From assembly GCA_023248505.1 (NCBI GenBank), contig JAHFEM010000008.1, forward strand, positions 1 to 13,582: a stretch of DNA of 13,582 bases. Direction: 5' to 3'. The notes beneath the pieces were generated by a model that saw only the letters and a list, made by a program, of their open reading frames with translations, did not search any database and was not told the origin of the DNA. The first letter of the stretch is position 1; each line of letters starts with the position of its first letter. A program made the translations under genes and the position numbers. This DNA comes from Nitrospirota bacterium. Its GTDB lineage: Bacteria > Nitrospirota > Nitrospiria > SBBL01 > Manganitrophaceae. Positions 3,835 to 13,582 of the stretch are shown one piece after another.

Positions 3835-4578
3835 TTAACTATCCGCCCTTGCCGCTTCCGCAGCCACATGCCCGGCGAGAGTCGTGACAAAGGTCTTTAA
3901 GCCCGTCATCTCAGATAGCTCTGAGTAGTCTCCAGTATTGACGGAGGAACGTGGTGACAAAAGGACGGAAGAGGTTGTGTATAGCTGCTCCTGGACGAGC
4001 TTCCGACAAAGAATATTGTACCGATCGGCATAGGATGCGCTGTTAAATTCTTCCAACACAGGGAAGTGGGGAGATTTATCTCGGACCGGGGTTCTGGAGA
4101 CGGCACAATCTTCAACGAGCATTAACCAGCCTACGAACGGGCGTGGGCTCTCTCCAAATGCGCCTTCACGATAGGCGGTCCGCAGGTCAACGGCTGTTCC
4201 GATCGCCTCTTCGGTCCGATTATTGAAGTTGTTTCCGAACGACGGCCCCACCTGGCTCTTCATCTCCATCGCTGCCACAAGCCGGCCGTTGTTCATCACG
4301 AGCATGTCCCATAGTTTCGTCGGGCGGAAATAACCGGGAAGCGTGAGAAGTTGCCGCTGCAAGCAGATTTCCGCATCCACGAGATCATTCCGCCGTACAA
4401 TCTCCTTCATTAAAGCCAAGAAGCCGTCCATGTTCTTCCCGGCCGTAACGCCGGCGCGTTCACCCTGGTCTGTTTTACCGCTCTCAATTTGTTTCTGGCG
4501 CGCGGCTTCGCGGTTGCCCCAGAATGCTTTTACAGCCTCTCTCGCTTTGGTTTGGTAATCGGCTAAGTCAATGCCCAC
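3835..4578 (-). CDS. Type II restriction endonuclease, PaeR7I/XhoI family
   Basis: This 247-residue protein cuts unmethylated DNA as the partner of the upstream methyltransferase. It matches the PaeR7I/XhoI family along its length: an N-terminal [20 protein letters not shown] helix, the GKNMDGF motif near 48, a PD-(D/E)XK core with D91 in LWDML and E105-x-K107 in [10 protein letters not shown], then the [13 protein letters not shown] segment and the C-terminal LEDC, RTPVRDK and SPHFPV patches. PaeR7I and XhoI cut CTCGAG, so the same target is likely but inferred. The start is GTG at 4578, which shares its G with the methyltransferase stop (TAGTG), with GAGG 7 bases upstream. This coupling delays nuclease relative to methylase. 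GC falls to about 50 percent, lower than the methylase gene. Confidence 0.92.
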
Positions 4579-6305
4579 TAGCGATCCTCGTTGGCGTTAC
4601 TTCCCATGGTCGCTTGCTCCACGGGGGTGAGCCGGTACAAATTAAATGCAGCGTGGTTGCATGCCTCAACATCCCCTGTATTGGCCGCATCCACAAGCGC
4701 TTTGCGGATTGTTTCAGGAATATCGTTCCATCGAGGGAGTCTGATCCGACGTAAGTATTGGGCCTGGAATCTTAAATAGCCTCCGCGCATTTGGGTTGAG
4801 TAAAGCGACACGAACAGTTTTGCAATACCGGAGCGGAGCACGGCCTGAAGGGCTTTCAAGTCCCACTCCTCTGTTGTAATGAAGCAGAGGTTGTGATGCG
4901 GGTAGAGGTGTCCGTCTTCATATACGATATGGGCCTCGCCTTTGATGTCGGGAATTAGGAGTTTGGGGCGGCGGGTCAGGTCCGGGTAAATGCGATCAAT
5001 GGTCCGATACCAGCCTTTGGGGTTTTTCTTCGCACAGTTGCGGTTGCGGATCGCTTCGGCGTGGCGTTTGAAGTGCTGTGCAAGCTTAGGATAGTCCGCA
5101 AGATGAACGAGGCTGCCGTCTTCTTCAAACGGGTTGATGACGCCAAAACCCCGCCATCGGACGGTTCCATCCTCGATGTCCTTCGTCATAACCAGGGGCA
5201 ACTTCCGGCTCGGCTCCACGTCGAGGCTTTCGAACGGCCCGATGAACACCGCATCGGCCCCTGTCGCGACTCCGATTCCGACCTTGCACCCGGCCTCCTC
5301 AAGAATGGGGAATTCCGTTTCAAGCCGGCGGATGACTGCCAACTGGTCAAACGAATGGAGTATCCAGGGCGCTTGGTCCTGAGCGACCACCACCGTCTCT
5401 AACACGCCGCTTCCCTCGGGGAGGGTGTCGGCCTGCATCGCTTGGGCAAGCGTTGAGAGGGCTTCCGGGTCAATTTGGGGACGGTGAGCAATCCGGGTCG
5501 GTCCAGGTTTCTCCCGCCTGATGATCGTGATGGCCGGGTATGCGCTCACCTCAGAATCGAAGGCGGGGGTATCGACCATATCGACGTAGTAGGCCAAATG
5601 GTAATCGTCCGCCACCATTGCTCGAAGCGGTCCACCATATTTATTTTTCATCCACCGGTCCGCGCAGATGAAGCCGAGCGATCCCCCCGGTTCGAGGCCG
5701 GTCAAACACCGCTCAATAAAAGGGACGTACAAATCGGCCCGGTCGTAGATCGTATCGTACTGCGTCCTGTACTCCGCCAGCAGCGCGTCGGGGATCAACT
5801 CCTGGCGCACATAGGGAGGGTTTCCGACGGCATGCGTGAAGGAGTGGGGAAGATCAACCAGGAGGAAGTCGCCTTCGATGAACCACGCCGCAAGGAGTCT
5901 CTGCGCGTCCGTTCTGGAAATTCCATGTGTCCGAAACAGATCGCGGAGTTTGGTCCGGGTATTTTCTATGCTATCGCGGTGCACCTCGACGGCCCGGATC
6001 GCGTCCGAGAGCTCTTCGACGATCCTGGCGCGGTCCGAAGCCTGCTTTGTATAGGCGATCAACAGCCGCTCCACAACGACCAGAAGAAAGCTTCCATCCC
6101 CAAACGAAGGTTCGAGGAGCCGGAACCGGTGTAAGGGTCGATCGATCGTGTACCCGGCCAGATCGAGGATAAACTCAACGACAACGCGCTTCGTGAAGAC
6201 CGCGCCGCGCTCTTCGACGCTGCTTTGCGCAAGCCGGTTGACGGCCTCTGAAAAATCGAGGATCGGCAAGGAGAGTTGTTTTGCTTTGTTGGGGCGGGTG
6301 TTCAT
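4578..6305 (-). CDS. Type II N6-adenine DNA methyltransferase (M.PaeR7I-like, gamma class)
   Basis: This 575-residue enzyme methylates adenine in the recognition site and protects the chromosome from the adjoining endonuclease. Motif X-like [14 protein letters not shown] (34-47), the AdoMet-binding motif [10 protein letters not shown] (65-73) and catalytic motif IV NPPY (162-165) appear in gamma-class order. The C-terminal half, from about residue 320, is the target-recognition region of TaqI/Eco57I-like enzymes, with [13 protein letters not shown] and [11 protein letters not shown]. Length is typical for M.PaeR7I-type enzymes. The start at 6305 is forced, because an in-frame TAG lies just upstream and no other Met is near. 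There is no Shine-Dalgarno: a 6-bp hairpin occupies that position, and a tiny leader frame overlaps the start as ATGA. It is first gene of the R-M operon. Confidence 0.92.
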
Positions 6306-6449: not shown

Positions 6450-6857
6450 TTAGGGTAGTGTTCCGAATCCCGCTTGCTTGAAATGTTTGTCGAAGGTCAG
6501 CGCTGTTTTGATTCCGCGCTGCTTCATGACGACAAAAGAAATGCAGTCGGTCAGGGAGTATGTTTTGTCACGGTGTTTCTGGAGATAACGCCATCCTTCA
6601 TGCAATAAAGGTGGGTCAATATGAATCAGCTCGATAGAAGGACTCTGCAAGAGTGTGTTTCCGATCTCCACTGCTTTTGAGTGATGGTTCCGGTTGTTAA
6701 AGAAGGTCACAATCTCATCGAAAACATAGGAAGTCGTGATGAGCGGAGGGAGGGATTTGGTGAGTTTTCCCCAATGCTCGGCTGCGACAATATGATTTTG
6801 ATCGTCCGCGACTTCCAGGGCAATCAGATAACTGGTGTCGAGTAGGAGAGGCCTCAT
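6450..6857 (-). CDS. vapC: PIN-domain toxin of a VapBC-type toxin-antitoxin pair
   Basis: This 135-residue PIN-domain protein is a predicted magnesium-dependent RNase that blocks translation when freed from its antitoxin; VapC targets are usually tRNA or rRNA. The acidic tetrad is complete: D7 in LLLDTSYL, E48 in VFDEIVTFF, D104 in SLTDCISF and D123 in LTFDKHF. Length matches the family. It begins 8 bases after the antitoxin stop and has no convincing Shine-Dalgarno, so translation is probably coupled to the antitoxin. GC is near 47 percent, below the methyltransferase and ParB-like genes. The specific RNA target cannot be inferred. It is listed as VapC rather than a solitary PIN protein because of the partner immediately upstream. 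Confidence 0.9.
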   Translation of the reverse strand: MRPLLLDTSYLIALEVADDQNHIVAAEHWGKLTKSLPPLITTSYVFDEIVTFFNNRNHHSKAVEIGNTLLQSPSIELIHIDPPLLHEGWRYLQKHRDKTYSLTDCISFVVMKQRGIKTALTFDKHFKQAGFGTLP

Positions 6858-7379: not shown

Positions 7380-7991
7380 CTAGGAGCAATTCTGAAACGG
7401 CTTTGCCTTTCTCAATATTTTATTGATTTCGGCCTCTTCGTAGTGGCGATATGTTTTTCCCAATATTACACAAGCATGGAGATAAACCGTCCTTCGGGGC
7501 ATTTTTTTTACGAGGTCAGTTTTAGTAAAAGTGGTTCCCTCAATTTCGATCTGTTCTGGTAGGTTGTACGCAAAACATTTTACAAAAGATTTTATCTGGT
7601 TTGCATCAAGATCAACCATGTACCGGTCAAACGAGAAGTTTACATTTTTTATGTCATGAACAAGTTTGTTCCGAAGTTCTGAAAGCGAGCGAATGAATCG
7701 CCGCTCATCTTCGTCAAGCAATCCTATGTCTCGCACGAATGCAAGTTTTCCAGCAGATGTATCGCTGAGTTCAAGCCGCGAGAAAACCTCGAGAACATTA
7801 TCGAAACCAGAAGAGATGGCTAGCAGACGACTCACCGCAGATTCGAGGAGAGCATGTAGCTTAATGACGAAAGACCAATCATCCCCTTCACTGAGCAGCC
7901 TTTGAATAAACTTTTCCGGAAGATGTAACCGAGATTCAAGTGTTGCCATTCTTTCTATAAATTCTTTTTCTAATTCAGCTTCTGTTGACAT
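7380..7991 (-). CDS. HEPN-domain protein, possible RNase of a defence or toxin system
   Basis: This is a 203-residue helical protein. The middle section resembles HEPN-fold proteins of the MltR/DUF4145 type: ALLESAVSRLLA (47-58), LAFVRDIGLLDEDE (83-96), then SELRNKLVHDI, which carries the HEPN R-x4-H motif at R107 and H112. Active HEPN proteins are metal-independent RNases in toxin-antitoxin and abortive-infection systems; inactive ones are binding partners. Which applies here is not known. The C-terminal 80 residues are unassigned, and no nucleotidyltransferase (MNT) partner is adjacent. GC is about 40 percent against about 60-65 percent in the ParB-like gene 35 bases upstream, pointing to separate acquisition. 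There is no clear Shine-Dalgarno before ATG 7991. Confidence 0.75.
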   Translation of the reverse strand: MSTEAELEKEFIERMATLESRLHLPEKFIQRLLSEGDDWSFVIKLHALLESAVSRLLAISSGFDNVLEVFSRLELSDTSAGKLAFVRDIGLLDEDERRFIRSLSELRNKLVHDIKNVNFSFDRYMVDLDANQIKSFVKCFAYNLPEQIEIEGTTFTKTDLVKKMPRRTVYLHACVILGKTYRHYEEAEINKILRKAKPFQNCS

Positions 7992-8026: not shown

Positions 8027-9022
8027 TTATTCTGTCTCCTCCACCACCCCACCCGTCTTTGCCAGATCTTCCATCTTAATCTTCTCCGGATTAAACTTCG
8101 CCAGCGCCTTGTTCATCCGCTCCAGCGTTTCGTTGAATGAAAGCGGCTCGGCGTCCTTGGGCCGGAATCGGATCGGGTTGATTCTTGCCACGACAAAGCT
8201 GCGCAGATAAGGGCTGGTGAGGCCGCGGGTTTTTAGAAGTTCGACCTGGCTGCTGACGGTTTCATCCAATCGGAGCAGGGCGTCGGCCCGCTCTTGTCGG
8301 AGCGCCGTCGCATCGCCGATCGGCTTTTTGATGAAGGTATCGACGCGCCGCAGGATCGGGTGATAGGCCCCGCCGGAGAAGCGCGGGCGCGCTTCGTAGC
8401 AGAAGCCGAGGGTGATCAGGGCCGCTTCTTCAAATTCGAGCTGATAGGTTTCTTCCGTGGCGTTACCGAGGCCGGCCAGCTCCCGGTACATCCTCACCAC
8501 TTCCAGCGCCCGCTCGCGGAGATTGTGCGCCTTCTCGGTGTTCAGCGCCAGGATCTGATAGGCGACCGACGCCTCCGGCGCGACGATCGCGATGATGCTC
8601 TTGGCGCCGAGGGTCCGCATCGCCGAGAGCCGATGGTGCCCGTTCGGCGTCCAGTATTTGGTGGCGCCTTCTTTGTCGATCCGGACGGCGATGATCGGGT
8701 CCAAGAAGCGGCCGATCTTTCCGATGACCCGCTCCAGCTTGCGGACATGCATCTCGGAGAGGTTGCGCTGATAGGGGGTCGGTTCCACTTTGTCGATCGG
8801 AAGGGCCGCCATCACCAGCCAATGGCCGCCGTAGGGCTCCCGGTAGATCGACAGGACCTTCCCGCCGTCGGCTTCGATCTGCTGATGGAGCGCGATCGCC
8901 TCTCCCGGCGGCTTCGCGGCGAGCAGCTCGGTCGCGCTCAACCCCACCGAAACCCCCGCCGGCTTCCGCCGCTTCCGGACGGCGCCCGGCGCGCGCGGCT
9001 TCTTCGGTTTTTTCTCCGGCAT
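8027..9022 (-). CDS. Stand-alone ParB-like (ParB/Sulfiredoxin fold) protein
   Basis: This 331-residue protein has a very basic N-terminal tail of about 22 residues, then a ParB N-terminal-type domain at roughly 72-150: VEPTPYQRNLSEMHVRKLE, DPIIAVRID and the GHHRL motif (128-132) that replaces the GERR/GHRR nucleotide-binding motif of ParB. A ParB-like ALNTEKAHNLRERALEVV helix follows at about 159-176. The C-terminal half is helical and unassigned. There is no ParA, no visible parS cluster and no chromosome-partition neighbours. Partitioning is therefore unlikely, and a role in an accessory or defence element is more plausible; neither is shown. The start is supported by GAGGG 7 bases before ATG 9022. 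GC is about 60-65 percent, unlike the HEPN gene downstream. Confidence 0.85.
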   Translation of the reverse strand: MPEKKPKKPRAPGAVRKRRKPAGVSVGLSATELLAAKPPGEAIALHQQIEADGGKVLSIYREPYGGHWLVMAALPIDKVEPTPYQRNLSEMHVRKLERVIGKIGRFLDPIIAVRIDKEGATKYWTPNGHHRLSAMRTLGAKSIIAIVAPEASVAYQILALNTEKAHNLRERALEVVRMYRELAGLGNATEETYQLEFEEAALITLGFCYEARPRFSGGAYHPILRRVDTFIKKPIGDATALRQERADALLRLDETVSSQVELLKTRGLTSPYLRSFVVARINPIRFRPKDAEPLSFNETLERMNKALAKFNPEKIKMEDLAKTGGVVEETE

Positions 9023-9118: not shown

Positions 9119-10177
9119 TCATCGCGACTCGAAAAGCCGCTCCCTGACTTCAATCGCCCGTTCCCACTTCTTCTGGTAGGCCGGCACCCTGTCGTCGGCG
9201 AAGCGGAAGAGGTCGATCCCCATCATGATGAAAGGGGCGTCGTTGAACCAGCGGCCGTCTTCGTTGGCGTCGTGCCAGGTGACGCCGAGGGTCACGAATC
9301 GGCCCCAGTGTGCGATGAATCCGATCCCCGGGCGAAGGTCGTCGCGAAGCGAGACGGCGGCGGAAATCCCTCCCCAGCGGAGCCCCGCTTCCGGCTTGTC
9401 GAGATTCCGCCAGTGGTACCAGACATGGCCCAAGAGCTCGATCGCCAGGCTCTCTTTGGCGGTCACTTCTTTGAAGCTCTTCGTGCCGATCTCGACCCCC
9501 AGTTCGGGATGAAGGAGGATCCACTGCCGCATCGGCGGGTACTGAATATTGTCGGCGCCGATCGTCGCGCTGTTGAAGGCCGCCTCCCACGGAAATTGCG
9601 ACATTCCCTCCCGCATGTAGATCTCCCAGCGGTCCTTGGCGTTTTCGATCGCCGCCACCGTCTGCTCGATCGCCGGCTTTTTGAAGTGGGTCAGAAGGCG
9701 ACTGACCGTGTCGATCCGAAAAAGGAGGTCTTCGGCTTGTGGGTCGGGGAGGGCCTCGATCTCCTGGTAGGGGAGAGCATACCCCTTTCCTGAGAAACAG
9801 ACCCCGTCCGGACAGGGGAATTGAAAAAGACCGGTCGGGGTGCGGGCGAGAAAGGTGTCGAGGGTCTCCCCCTTTTTATCGGCTGCCGCCAGGTTGGCCT
9901 CGAAGTGGGAGAAGCGTTCATTCAATACCCGGAGAGCTTCGAGGAGACGTTGGTACGCCGGCTCCGTCTTTCCCCAGAGGGGAGAAGATTCCAGATCCTT
10001 CTGAAGCCCCCGAAAGACGGTCGGGTAGTCGTAGGCCGCCAGCGGCTGCCGATACCGGTTCAGCGCCTGCTCAAAGGCGCGTGGGTCGTCCGGCTTCGGC
10101 GTCCATTCGTAGGGGTCGAGGGCGAGCGCCGGCCGGGCAAGAAGGAGAAGGACGATCGTCAGGAGTAGGCGCTTCAT
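9119..10177 (-). CDS. Exported protein of unknown family, third gene of the dioxygenase operon
   Basis: This 352-residue protein has a classical Sec signal peptide: KR then LLLTIVLLLLARPALA, with probable cleavage after A19. It has no lipobox. The mature protein starts LDPYEW and contains a helical region at about 30-110, a close cysteine pair in FPCPDGVCF (C122 and C127) that could form a disulfide, and a C-terminal half rich in Trp, His and Gly with alternating hydrophobic stretches (LGHVWYHWRNLD, GIGFIAHWGRF, GVTWHDANEDGRWF). I do not recognise the family. Its ATG overlaps the hydrolase stop as ATGA (10174-10177), so the two are translationally coupled and the protein likely works with that gene pair, in the periplasm or cell envelope. 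Confidence 0.85.
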   Translation of the reverse strand: MKRLLLTIVLLLLARPALALDPYEWTPKPDDPRAFEQALNRYRQPLAAYDYPTVFRGLQKDLESSPLWGKTEPAYQRLLEALRVLNERFSHFEANLAAADKKGETLDTFLARTPTGLFQFPCPDGVCFSGKGYALPYQEIEALPDPQAEDLLFRIDTVSRLLTHFKKPAIEQTVAAIENAKDRWEIYMREGMSQFPWEAAFNSATIGADNIQYPPMRQWILLHPELGVEIGTKSFKEVTAKESLAIELLGHVWYHWRNLDKPEAGLRWGGISAAVSLRDDLRPGIGFIAHWGRFVTLGVTWHDANEDGRWFNDAPFIMMGIDLFRFADDRVPAYQKKWERAIEVRERLFESR

Positions 10178-11250: not shown

Positions 11251-13582
11251 CTACTTAAACGCCTCGTCCCCCTCCGCTCCCGCGCGGGGTTTCCATCCCA
11301 GCGAGTAATATTCCGCGCGGTCGCGGGCCCACGGATCAAACGCGTTGACGACATGCGCCAACTCCGGCGCCAGCTCCGGGGCGGCCCGCAGCAGGATGCG
11401 CTTCAAGGGCGAAACTTCCACCGCGTGACCGTTCGGCGTTCCCTTCTCCATCACCTTCCCGTCGGGGCCGTTGTTCGTCACCCACTCGACGCCGAGGTGG
11501 GTGTAGAACTCGGGGCGGAAGCTGGAGGTGAAGAAGCGGTCGCTGAAGAGCCGCCGGGAGGCGTTGAGGATGAAGACCTGGAACTGGGTCTCGGAGATCG
11601 CGAAGCCGTGCGGGCGGGCAAATTCCGACAGCCAGCCGACGACCGTATCGACATCCTCGATGTTGTCGACCAGGCTCTTGTCGGGATGGCCGAGGCAGTC
11701 GGTGATCGGCGTGCCGTCGTCGTTCACCTGGGCGGAGGTGATCACCTTCGAGGCGTCGCAGATGTGCTGGCCGTAAACCTCGCGCAGAAGTCCGACGAGC
11801 CGCGCTTGCTCGGCGCGCTCCGGCGAATCTTTCGCAAGGCGCGGGTCGATAAAGTCGTCGTAGCTCGTCAGCTGCTTCAGGCCGTACTGACGGCGGAACT
11901 CGTTGAAGCGGGGGACGCCGCGCTCGCGGTCGCGAATCAGATCGAGCGCCGCCACGTCGAGCTTGTCGGTCGCCGTCTGCAGCCGCGGCATCGGGAGGTT
12001 CTGAAGGAACTGCGGTTGGTTCTGGAGGGTGAGGAGGCCCAAGCGCTGGCGTCCCATCGAGAGGGCCCAGCTGGCGAGGCCGCGCGTCTCCATCGCCTCC
12101 GTCGCTTTGCCTCGGAAGGTCTCGACCACCGGGATTTTGTTTCGGCTGGTGTTCGGATTTCCGACTTCCCGGAATTCGATCAGATCGGGAACCAGCGCGT
12201 GCAATCGGTAGACGGTGACGAACTCCTCCGGAAAGTTGAACGGCGACCCGAAGTGGTTGACCCCGCCGTTGACATGGTCGGGATTCTTCAGGCTCCAGAT
12301 GTCTGTCTTTTCAGGATCGAACTTGGCGAAGAGGGCGTCATCTGCGTAGACCCGGCTTCCCAGGCCGAAGATCCCCGGACCGGAGGCAAAGACCGAATAC
12401 CATTGAGAGGCTTTCTTGGCGTTCTCCGATGTGCCGAAGTTGTCGATGACGATCTTCTCCAGCGCGCGCGTGACGAGGTTATCCTTCTGGATCAGTCCGC
12501 TCCAGTTGGAGTTCATCCCGAGGAAGAGCGGCTCATCGTAGAGGAGCTGCGGGGTCCATTCAATCGTGTGGATCTTGGCGATCTCCGCGGAGACGACCAG
12601 CCGCGCCACCTCGAACAGCTCATCGTCGGTGACCTCTTTGTAGCGGATGACCACATCGGGCCGCGCGGGGTTCAGAAGGCCGGAGTCGGCCTCCGGCTTC
12701 GCCGCCGCCCGCTTGCGGAAAGCTTCGACGAAGAGATTATGCTCGCGGGCGAAGAGGTTATGGTAGAAGCTCGTTCCGATCGACCAGTTGTCGGGAAAGG
12801 CGGTCGCCTCCTGGCCGGCCCAGGCGGGGTTGATCGGATCGGCCGGCGCAAACGGGGGGAGATAGCCGATCTTCTCGCCGGCCGCCGCCCGCTGCGGGAT
12901 CGGCACCAGCAGCAGCTTGGCCGGATCGTTCGGATCGCGTTTCACCCGCCGCTGCGAGGTCTCATCATAGCCGTAGAGCTGGGAGGCGTCCCACCAGGCG
13001 GTGACGGTGTTCCGCGTGGTCTTGTAGGCGCGGGCGGGCAGGGTCTTCCCTTTGTAAGTGAAGGTCGCGGGATCGCTCTCCTCGGCGAAGAATGATTTCT
13101 CCATCCGATCGTCGGGACGGCAACCGAGCTTCGCGATCTCCTCGGAGGTGAGCGGGGCCTCGACGTTGTTGACCCGCTGCATTTTGCATCCGACGGCCAT
13201 CTTCTCCGATTGATTATGTCCGTCCTCCAGGTGGGAGAACCAGTCGTGGGTCATGAACTGAATCCAGAACGCCGCCAGAACGTTGAAAAGGGGGGCTTTC
13301 TTGTAGTCGCAATTCGCTTCGGGGGAGCCGCCGGGGAGCCCCTGCCCCTCGCGGCACTTCTCCGGCTGCGACTGCGCGCGGGTGAAGAGCTTGCGGCTGA
13401 TGACTTGGGGGTCGGGCGTCAGCAGTCCGAGCCGATCGCCGTGGCGATTCCACGCCAGCTCGTTCTTTTTGAGGTCGGGGAAGGTCGATTCGAATTGGAC
13501 GTTTCGGGCGAACGGCATGCCGGTCGAACCCATGGCGGGGTTCTTGAGGTCGTTGCAGATCCCGGTGAGGTTCCGAAAACGG
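11251..13582 (-). CDS. Alpha-dioxygenase/cyclooxygenase-like haem peroxidase (fatty-acid oxygenase), 5' partial
   Basis: The frame is open to the window edge, so the N-terminus is missing; 776 residues are visible, numbered here from codon 13581. The internal ATG at 13533 is not the start, because the family motif RFRNLTGICND precedes it. The animal haem peroxidase superfamily is clear, and the closest match by eye is plant alpha-dioxygenase, which adds O2 to the alpha carbon of fatty acids. Key features: distal H112 in IQFMTHDW, WWDASQLYGYD, REHN, H338 and T343 in KIHTIEWT, radical Y458 and proximal H461 in VYRLHALVPD, AALDLIRDRERG (544-555), GFAISET (659-665), and Arg in ASRRL (676-677). 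It exceeds plant enzymes (about 620-640) by at least 130 residues, with insertions between the distal and proximal His. No signal peptide can be judged. It leads a three-gene operon. Confidence 0.92.
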   Translation of the reverse strand, partial: RFRNLTGICNDLKNPAMGSTGMPFARNVQFESTFPDLKKNELAWNRHGDRLGLLTPDPQVISRKLFTRAQSQPEKCREGQGLPGGSPEANCDYKKAPLFNVLAAFWIQFMTHDWFSHLEDGHNQSEKMAVGCKMQRVNNVEAPLTSEEIAKLGCRPDDRMEKSFFAEESDPATFTYKGKTLPARAYKTTRNTVTAWWDASQLYGYDETSQRRVKRDPNDPAKLLLVPIPQRAAAGEKIGYLPPFAPADPINPAWAGQEATAFPDNWSIGTSFYHNLFAREHNLFVEAFRKRAAAKPEADSGLLNPARPDVVIRYKEVTDDELFEVARLVVSAEIAKIHTIEWTPQLLYDEPLFLGMNSNWSGLIQKDNLVTRALEKIVIDNFGTSENAKKASQWYSVFASGPGIFGLGSRVYADDALFAKFDPEKTDIWSLKNPDHVNGGVNHFGSPFNFPEEFVTVYRLHALVPDLIEFREVGNPNTSRNKIPVVETFRGKATEAMETRGLASWALSMGRQRLGLLTLQNQPQFLQNLPMPRLQTATDKLDVAALDLIRDRERGVPRFNEFRRQYGLKQLTSYDDFIDPRLAKDSPERAEQARLVGLLREVYGQHICDASKVITSAQVNDDGTPITDCLGHPDKSLVDNIEDVDTVVGWLSEFARPHGFAISETQFQVFILNASRRLFSDRFFTSSFRPEFYTHLGVEWVTNNGPDGKVMEKGTPNGHAVEVSPLKRILLRAAPELAPELAHVVNAFDPWARDRAEYYSLGWKPRAGAEGDEAFK

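Follow-up and report, generated by a model that had tools for sequence, protein, structure and literature searches.

The DNA analysed here, a stretch of 13,582 nucleotides from Candidatus Manganitrophus (Nitrospirota; contig JAHFEM010000008.1) that we call the window, carries at its end a minus-strand gene (11251-13581) that probably (roughly 0.7 by our estimate) belongs to a long, exported branch of the haem-dependent alpha-dioxygenases (alpha-DOX). Its product would be anchored in the cell envelope and would oxygenate free fatty acids with O2, giving 2-hydroperoxides as well as aldehydes one carbon shorter (Cn-1). Observed directly, and carrying this reading, are the residues and lineage of the protein, the agreement of a close relative's model with the alpha-DOX fold, and the export signal and gene company of its relatives.

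The window is the entire contig C257 of a genome of 493 contigs that is 72% complete, and the gene is a fragment, open at the contig end. About 183 residues are absent from the window protein, as judged from the distal haem His, which is residue 112 here and 295 in the relative P0001 (959 residues, 89% identical). Because the open reading frame (ORF) runs off the contig, the residue numbers used here, which take the window's first codon as 1, are arbitrary, and the ATG at 13533 is an internal codon. The protein matches the animal-haem-peroxidase domain in Pfam (PF03098, E 6.9e-68) and, among PDB sequences, rice alpha-DOX (E 4.9e-58); its matches to alpha-DOX chains score 192-200 bits, and the remaining two matches score at most 25 bits. 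Given the E-value to the rice enzyme and the 3018 proteins related to the window protein at E ≤ 0.001 (7996 candidates scored), we conclude that the resemblance in motifs is not due to chance. The long alpha-DOX is present in five genomes of the genus to which the window belongs; the proteins encoded at L005 (a record named Candidatus Manganitrophus) and L004 (Manganitrophaceae) are 88% and 89% identical to the window protein, and the G003 locus has coordinates identical to those of the L005 record. At L087 (genome G004) the dioxygenase frame contains one internal TAG stop, ∼395 residues into the aligned part.

Catalytic residues, lineage and fold

The motifs KIHTIEWT, VYRLH, NASRRL and RFFTSSF, from which a first-pass annotation had proposed an alpha-DOX, all lie in the reading frame, the last two at residues 673 and 682. 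His338, Trp342 and Thr343 fall within KIHTIEWT, Tyr458 and His461 within VYRLH, and distal His112 within QFMTHDWF. By alignment, the window protein holds the counterparts of rice H157, H311, W315, T316, F375, Y379, H382, F549, F552, I553, A556, R558 and R559, and it has Leu and Ser in place of rice M325 and A331, respectively; the roles of the rice active-site residues are described in PMC8720084 (statements from the literature refer throughout to excerpts of the papers cited). Conservation was counted in those listed relatives (120 long, 120 short) that fall within limits of >930 and 570-680 amino acids, leaving 111 long and 105 short proteins. All proteins in both sets (111/111 and 105/105) are identical at H157, H311, W315, T316, F375, Y379, H382, F552, A556, R558 and R559, so that the His/Thr/Arg set that binds the carboxylate (His338, Thr343 and Arg677 in the window) is kept in every long relative. 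The counterparts of rice L53 and R57 would lie in the missing part of the window protein and are present in 109/111 and 111/111 long relatives, respectively. The Asp that precedes the distal His in myeloperoxidase-type enzymes had been reported as absent, and the residue at this position is Thr111; in the peroxidase sequences it is Asp in 11 of the 12 fetched and Ser in a piece of L107.

Phylogeny separated the window protein from peroxidases and cyclooxygenases (COX). In a 42-row tree, all 32 alpha-DOX rows formed one clade (support 98/93) that excluded both, and within it the window and long proteins formed a deep-branching clade of their own (100/99). The outgroup comprised a fragment of human COX-1, one set of cyclooxygenase-like proteins with the YRWH signature (from four Nitrosomonas genomes) and five peroxidases, the latter all bacterial and thus not including peroxinectin or myeloperoxidase itself. 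The four full-length Nitrosomonas rows were added because the COX-1 fragment (branch 6.67) was unresolved among alpha-DOX rows in a quick 94-row tree, in which the long clade had support of 100; a 45-row tree built without COX gave 100/100 for the same clade. The rows of all three trees were chosen by the analyst, and the cyanobacterial CalDOX, LepDOX and CsDOX and the Nostoc 10S-DOX were left out of them. In an AlphaFold model of P0001, the four solved alpha-DOX entries were the best structural matches (ranks 1-4 in both comparisons). Thus residues, tree placement and overall fold agree with the alpha-DOX identity first proposed, and the corresponding activity is predicted.

Two other identities were considered and rejected. 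The signature of the window protein is YRLH and not the Y-x-W-H (YRWH) of cyclooxygenases, and a cyclooxygenase was rejected on this signature, the placement outside the COX rows of the 42-row tree and the fold of the P0001 model. A peroxidase of the myeloperoxidase or peroxinectin kind was rejected on the Thr before the distal His, the placement apart from the bacterial peroxidase rows of that tree and the same fold.

Length, export signal and conserved cysteines

The protein had been described as at least 130 residues longer than the plant enzymes; it is longer, but that figure is too low, since 106 of the 120 listed long relatives have 935-980 residues (median 956) and the PDB chains of the rice and Arabidopsis enzymes have 621 and 652. 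The inserts reported between the two haem His are present, with 349 residues separating His112 from His461 compared with 225 in rice, and by the alignment the part leading up to the distal His, the part that follows Tyr458 and the C-terminus are longer as well. The rice fragment used for comparison has 117 residues ahead of the distal His, followed by spacings of 154 to H311, 68 to Y379 and 180 to R559, with 56 residues thereafter; the corresponding medians are 290, 226, 120, 220 and 102 in long relatives and 154, 159, 68, 168 and 61 in short ones. On these alignments, the extra length is spread across the protein and is characteristic of the long clade rather than of this genome.

The column of the lipobox Cys is occupied by Cys in 107/111 long relatives, most commonly as LAGC (34) or LGGC (16), and the +2 position after it is Asp in 4 of these 107. 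A stricter lipobox expression matched 98/110 long but only 2/117 short relatives. The data suggest that long-branch proteins are exported lipoproteins, predicted by the usual sorting rule to reside in the outer membrane. The lipobox is present in all five other Manganitrophus genomes (7 loci), and from the lipobox of its relatives we infer envelope anchoring of the window protein itself. Ten more Cys are invariant (111/111) in long relatives, each of them occurring in at most 6/105 short relatives, a pattern that would fit disulphides formed outside the cytoplasm.

These features set the long branch apart from known alpha-DOX. The plant enzymes (rice 4kvj/4kvl, Arabidopsis 4hhr/4hhs) are ∼300-335 residues shorter, the rice enzyme has no Cys at any of the ten conserved positions, and plant alpha-DOX associate with lipid droplets by amphipathic helices (PMC8720084), in contrast to the lipobox of the long branch. 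The cyanobacterial CalDOX, LepDOX and CsDOX and the short bacterial proteins (P0121-P0240) are bacterial and have active-site residues in common with the long branch; however, the short proteins form a separate branch, have 570-680 residues in 105 of the 120 listed, and rarely carry the lipobox.

Gene company and competing explanations

Among 362 stretches, 198 relatives were confirmed, and neighbours were counted at the best 80 loci, which include Nitrospira, Nitrosomonas, Methylomonas, Acidobacteria and Halomonas. Neighbouring ORFs were picked by length, without a gene caller, and the label catalase-like denotes a sequence cluster. Such an ORF starts on the same strand no more than 150 bases past the end of the match at 10/80 loci (anywhere at the locus, 21/80), and a P450 is so placed at 3/80. 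Searched one by one in Pfam, the adjacent catalase-like ORFs of L026 and L027 scored above the catalase cut-off, those of L070 and L079 scored below it, and those of L076 and L080 had no match. Among 114 immediate neighbours (Pfam, E ≤ 0.001; best 25 of 86 families), catalase was found nine times, GMC oxidoreductase, FAD-binding oxidase and patatin five times each, P450 four times, and lipoxygenase and Tle1-like phospholipase twice each. In a control of 101 fifth neighbours, Tle1 was also found twice, and the other six families lay outside the best 25 of 127. This control is not clean, because some clusters are long and their genes fall within it (at least one GMC gene, L031:580-2580, and five 400-residue catalase-like ORFs, at L026, L027, L030, L047 and L079); Pfam missed both ORFs of the 400-residue type that were searched alone. 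Counts of DyP were not used, as the profile was built from a cluster including DyP-plus-catalase fusions and also scores catalase-like ORFs. P0217 is a natural fusion of a catalase-like part and a short alpha-DOX, and both catalase-like types are related to its N-terminal part.

The cluster of Nitrosomonas europaea (L059) contains a tyrosinase, a YRWH cyclooxygenase-like protein, a lipoxygenase, the long alpha-DOX, a GMC oxidoreductase, a di-haem cytochrome c peroxidase-like protein (below its family cut-off), a DyP-type peroxidase and a catalase-like protein. A lipoxygenase of this species is cited as characterised (PMC11941309). The YRWH protein occurs in Nitrosomonas L059, L045, L046 and L052 and adjoins the lipoxygenase and the long alpha-DOX in L059 and L045. 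Another recurring protein, c4 (434 residues; L045:18141-19442 and relatives), has no Pfam match, and its family is found near long alpha-DOX in 18/80 loci; its model has a duplicated fold of the alpha/beta-barrel type with weak likeness to monooxygenase-like proteins (best E 2.4e-5, TM 0.37-0.45). Halomonas-group loci L070, L075, L077 and L080 encode proteins of 877-1022 residues, apparently fusions, with hits to the DyP as well as the catalase-like profile, and at L095/L099 (genome G025) a lipoxygenase-family ORF (PF00305, E 1.5e-7) adjoins a short alpha-DOX fragment. By analogy, the catalase-like, P450, lipoxygenase, patatin or GMC genes adjoining long alpha-DOX may be seen as recalling known oxylipin pathways.

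We infer the substrate, product and role of the window protein as follows. The protein would sit in the cell envelope by a lipid anchor, probably at the outer membrane, with its bulk exposed to the periplasm or the exterior. Haem activated by peroxide would generate a radical on Tyr458, and a free fatty acid, its carboxylate held by His338, Thr343 and Arg677, would present its alpha carbon to that radical. Addition of O2 would yield a 2-hydroperoxy acid, which would lose CO2 to give the Cn-1 aldehyde unless it were taken by a partner enzyme. More tentatively, the long branch could be the oxygenase of a bacterial envelope oxylipin system, in which fatty acids are released by lipases of the patatin or Tle1 type and oxygenated to the hydroperoxide by the anchored dioxygenase, and in which a haem protein encoded next to it (catalase-like, P450 or DyP-type) converts the hydroperoxide to a defined signal or defence product; several of the bacteria concerned are chemolithotrophs.

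Known haem dioxygenases act with catalase-related or P450 partners (PMC13049297), and one alternative, which we consider unlikely, is that the protein, as a haem dioxygenase of this same lineage, attacks a different position or a different acyl substrate, and that catalase-like or P450 partners then cleave the hydroperoxide in the manner of the 10S-dioxygenase and diol synthase pathways. Although the genes directly downstream recall the partners of Nostoc 10S-DOX (a catalase-related lyase) and of fungal diol synthases (a P450), and although the inserts may reshape the channel, the invariant carboxylate-binding set would, by analogy with rice, bring C2 to the Tyr, the protein has YRLH rather than YRWH as its signature, and the P0217 fusion shows that catalase-like partners accompany alpha-DOX as well. 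The Nostoc and fungal enzymes are compared with cyclooxygenases in PMC13049297; cyclooxygenases have the Tyr radical and proximal His in common with long alpha-DOX but differ in their signature and lie outside the alpha-DOX clade of the 42-row tree (98/93). The oleate-diol synthase of Pseudomonas aeruginosa (PA2077/PA2078) is also a fatty-acid dioxygenase outside the cytoplasm (PMC4496055), but as a member of the di-haem cytochrome c peroxidase family it is a protein of another kind.

It is improbable that the protein is an extracytoplasmic peroxidase, serving for example oxidative defence or Mn(II) oxidation, in which dioxygenase activity is lost or minor: all 111 long relatives keep the radical Tyr and the residues that bind the fatty acid, and the tree separates the protein from the peroxidase clade. 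Export is predicted, the host genus is known for manganese oxidation, and for other bacteria haem peroxidase homologues are mentioned in connection with Mn(II) oxidation (PMC9040806), but the best 80 loci also span the other lineages named above. That this is an ordinary bacterial alpha-DOX, with the same residues as known enzymes and a functionally meaningless length and export signal, is very hard to credit, since drift would hardly keep segment lengths, lipobox and ten Cys conserved across the clade.

Several observations weigh against assigning the window gene to an exported, fatty-acid-oxidising branch. The N-terminus of the window protein, where the lipobox would lie, is outside the assembly, the gene being cut. 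The plant and short rows were joined weakly in the 42-row tree (90/71), the order of the long, short and plant groups had support of 20/0 in the 45-row tree, the branch leading to the long clade measures ∼1.5 changes per site, and each of the three trees drew a warning from the program about long branches meeting and uneven letter make-up. In the P0001 model, the predicted local distance difference test (pLDDT) score falls below 50 at residues 297-301 and 861-869, beside His295 and Arg860, the counterparts of the distal His and rice Arg559; the model thus points to an alpha-DOX fold overall, with low confidence in the active-site geometry around haem and channel. None of five cluster families was found at 51/80 loci, in part through short contigs. 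Within the genus of the window, c4 was found in 0/6 Manganitrophus genomes and the catalase-like protein in 1/6, far from the dioxygenase, and oxylipin-type partner genes are absent beside the dioxygenase in the window. Because partner genes do not adjoin it there, the role of the dioxygenase is least certain in Manganitrophus.

The window locus and the wider family

The positions of the dioxygenase residues, of its longer segments and of the two genes that follow it are given in Table 1. The motifs HGIG and AHSMG of the first of these genes are presumably an alpha/beta hydrolase signature, and its relative at L087 has weak DUF676/DUF900 matches. This hydrolase is present in 2/6 Manganitrophus genomes, with L087 (genome G004) the only occurrence besides the window, and neither it nor the next protein has a solid Pfam family.

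Table 1. Features of the long alpha-dioxygenase-like gene and of adjoining genes in the window.
Feature	Position	Strand	Basis or remark
Long alpha-dioxygenase-like gene	11251..13581	-	776 codons; 5' end lost at contig end; full-length relatives
Distal haem His112 (rice H157)	13246..13248	-	identical in 111/111 long and 105/105 short relatives
Longer segment 1 vs rice (residues ~122-190)	13012..13218	-	gaps between aligned blocks; edges approximate
Longer segment 2 vs rice (residues ~214-313)	12643..12942	-	gaps between aligned blocks; edges approximate
Carboxylate-binding His338 (rice H311)	12568..12570	-	alignment; role from PMC8720084
Thr343 (rice T316)	12553..12555	-	alignment; role from PMC8720084
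Longer segment 3, Thr343-Tyr458 (residues ~367-441)	12259..12483	-	alignments; edges approximate
Catalytic Tyr458 (rice Y379)	12208..12210	-	motif and alignment
Proximal haem His461 (rice H382)	12199..12201	-	motif and alignment
Longer segment 4 (residues ~582-638)	11668..11838	-	holds invariant Cys608 and Cys629; alignments; edges approximate
Carboxylate-binding Arg677 (rice R559)	11551..11553	-	alignment
Putative alpha/beta hydrolase, 354 aa	10174..11238	-	starts 12 bases past dioxygenase stop; assignment weak
Protein with signal-peptide-like start	9119..10177	-	overlaps hydrolase gene by 4 bases; no Pfam match

Elsewhere in the window, a gene for a ParB-like protein (8027-9022) is also found near the dioxygenase in three further Manganitrophus genomes, G002, G003 and G005 (L004/L085, L005/L086 and L089). 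A complete-looking type II restriction-modification pair lies at 3835-6305, consisting of an XhoI-family restriction endonuclease gene (PF04555) and an Eco57I-like adenine methylase gene. The segment 6751-8000 is an A/T-rich island (37-45% G+C compared with 58-67% in the flanks) and is possibly acquired DNA; it contains a 203-residue ORF (7380-7991), and a PIN-domain gene lies close by at 6450-6857.

The first-pass annotation had limited alpha-DOX to plants and a few bacteria such as cyanobacteria. They are commoner than that, being reported from five bacterial phyla (PMC8720084), although the characterised enzymes named in the literature consulted come from plants and cyanobacteria. Because bacterial alpha-DOX are already in print (PMC8720084, PMC9305512), what is new is the long exported branch together with its cysteines and recurring neighbours, none of which we found described in the literature searched. 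Among titles and the opening parts of abstracts, we recognised no published account of a long lipoprotein alpha-DOX; members may sit unnamed in the tree of PMC8720084, since that survey discarded only sequences of >1000 amino acids and reports alpha-DOX from Proteobacteria and Acidobacteria.

If our proposal is correct, a widespread extracytoplasmic branch would place fatty-acid alpha-oxidation in the bacterial envelope and would suggest that nitrifiers and methanotrophs make oxylipins yet to be studied. It would also offer Cys-rich, possibly disulphide-bonded enzymes for the production of fatty aldehydes, and the recurring neighbours of long alpha-DOX would constitute a directly testable pathway.
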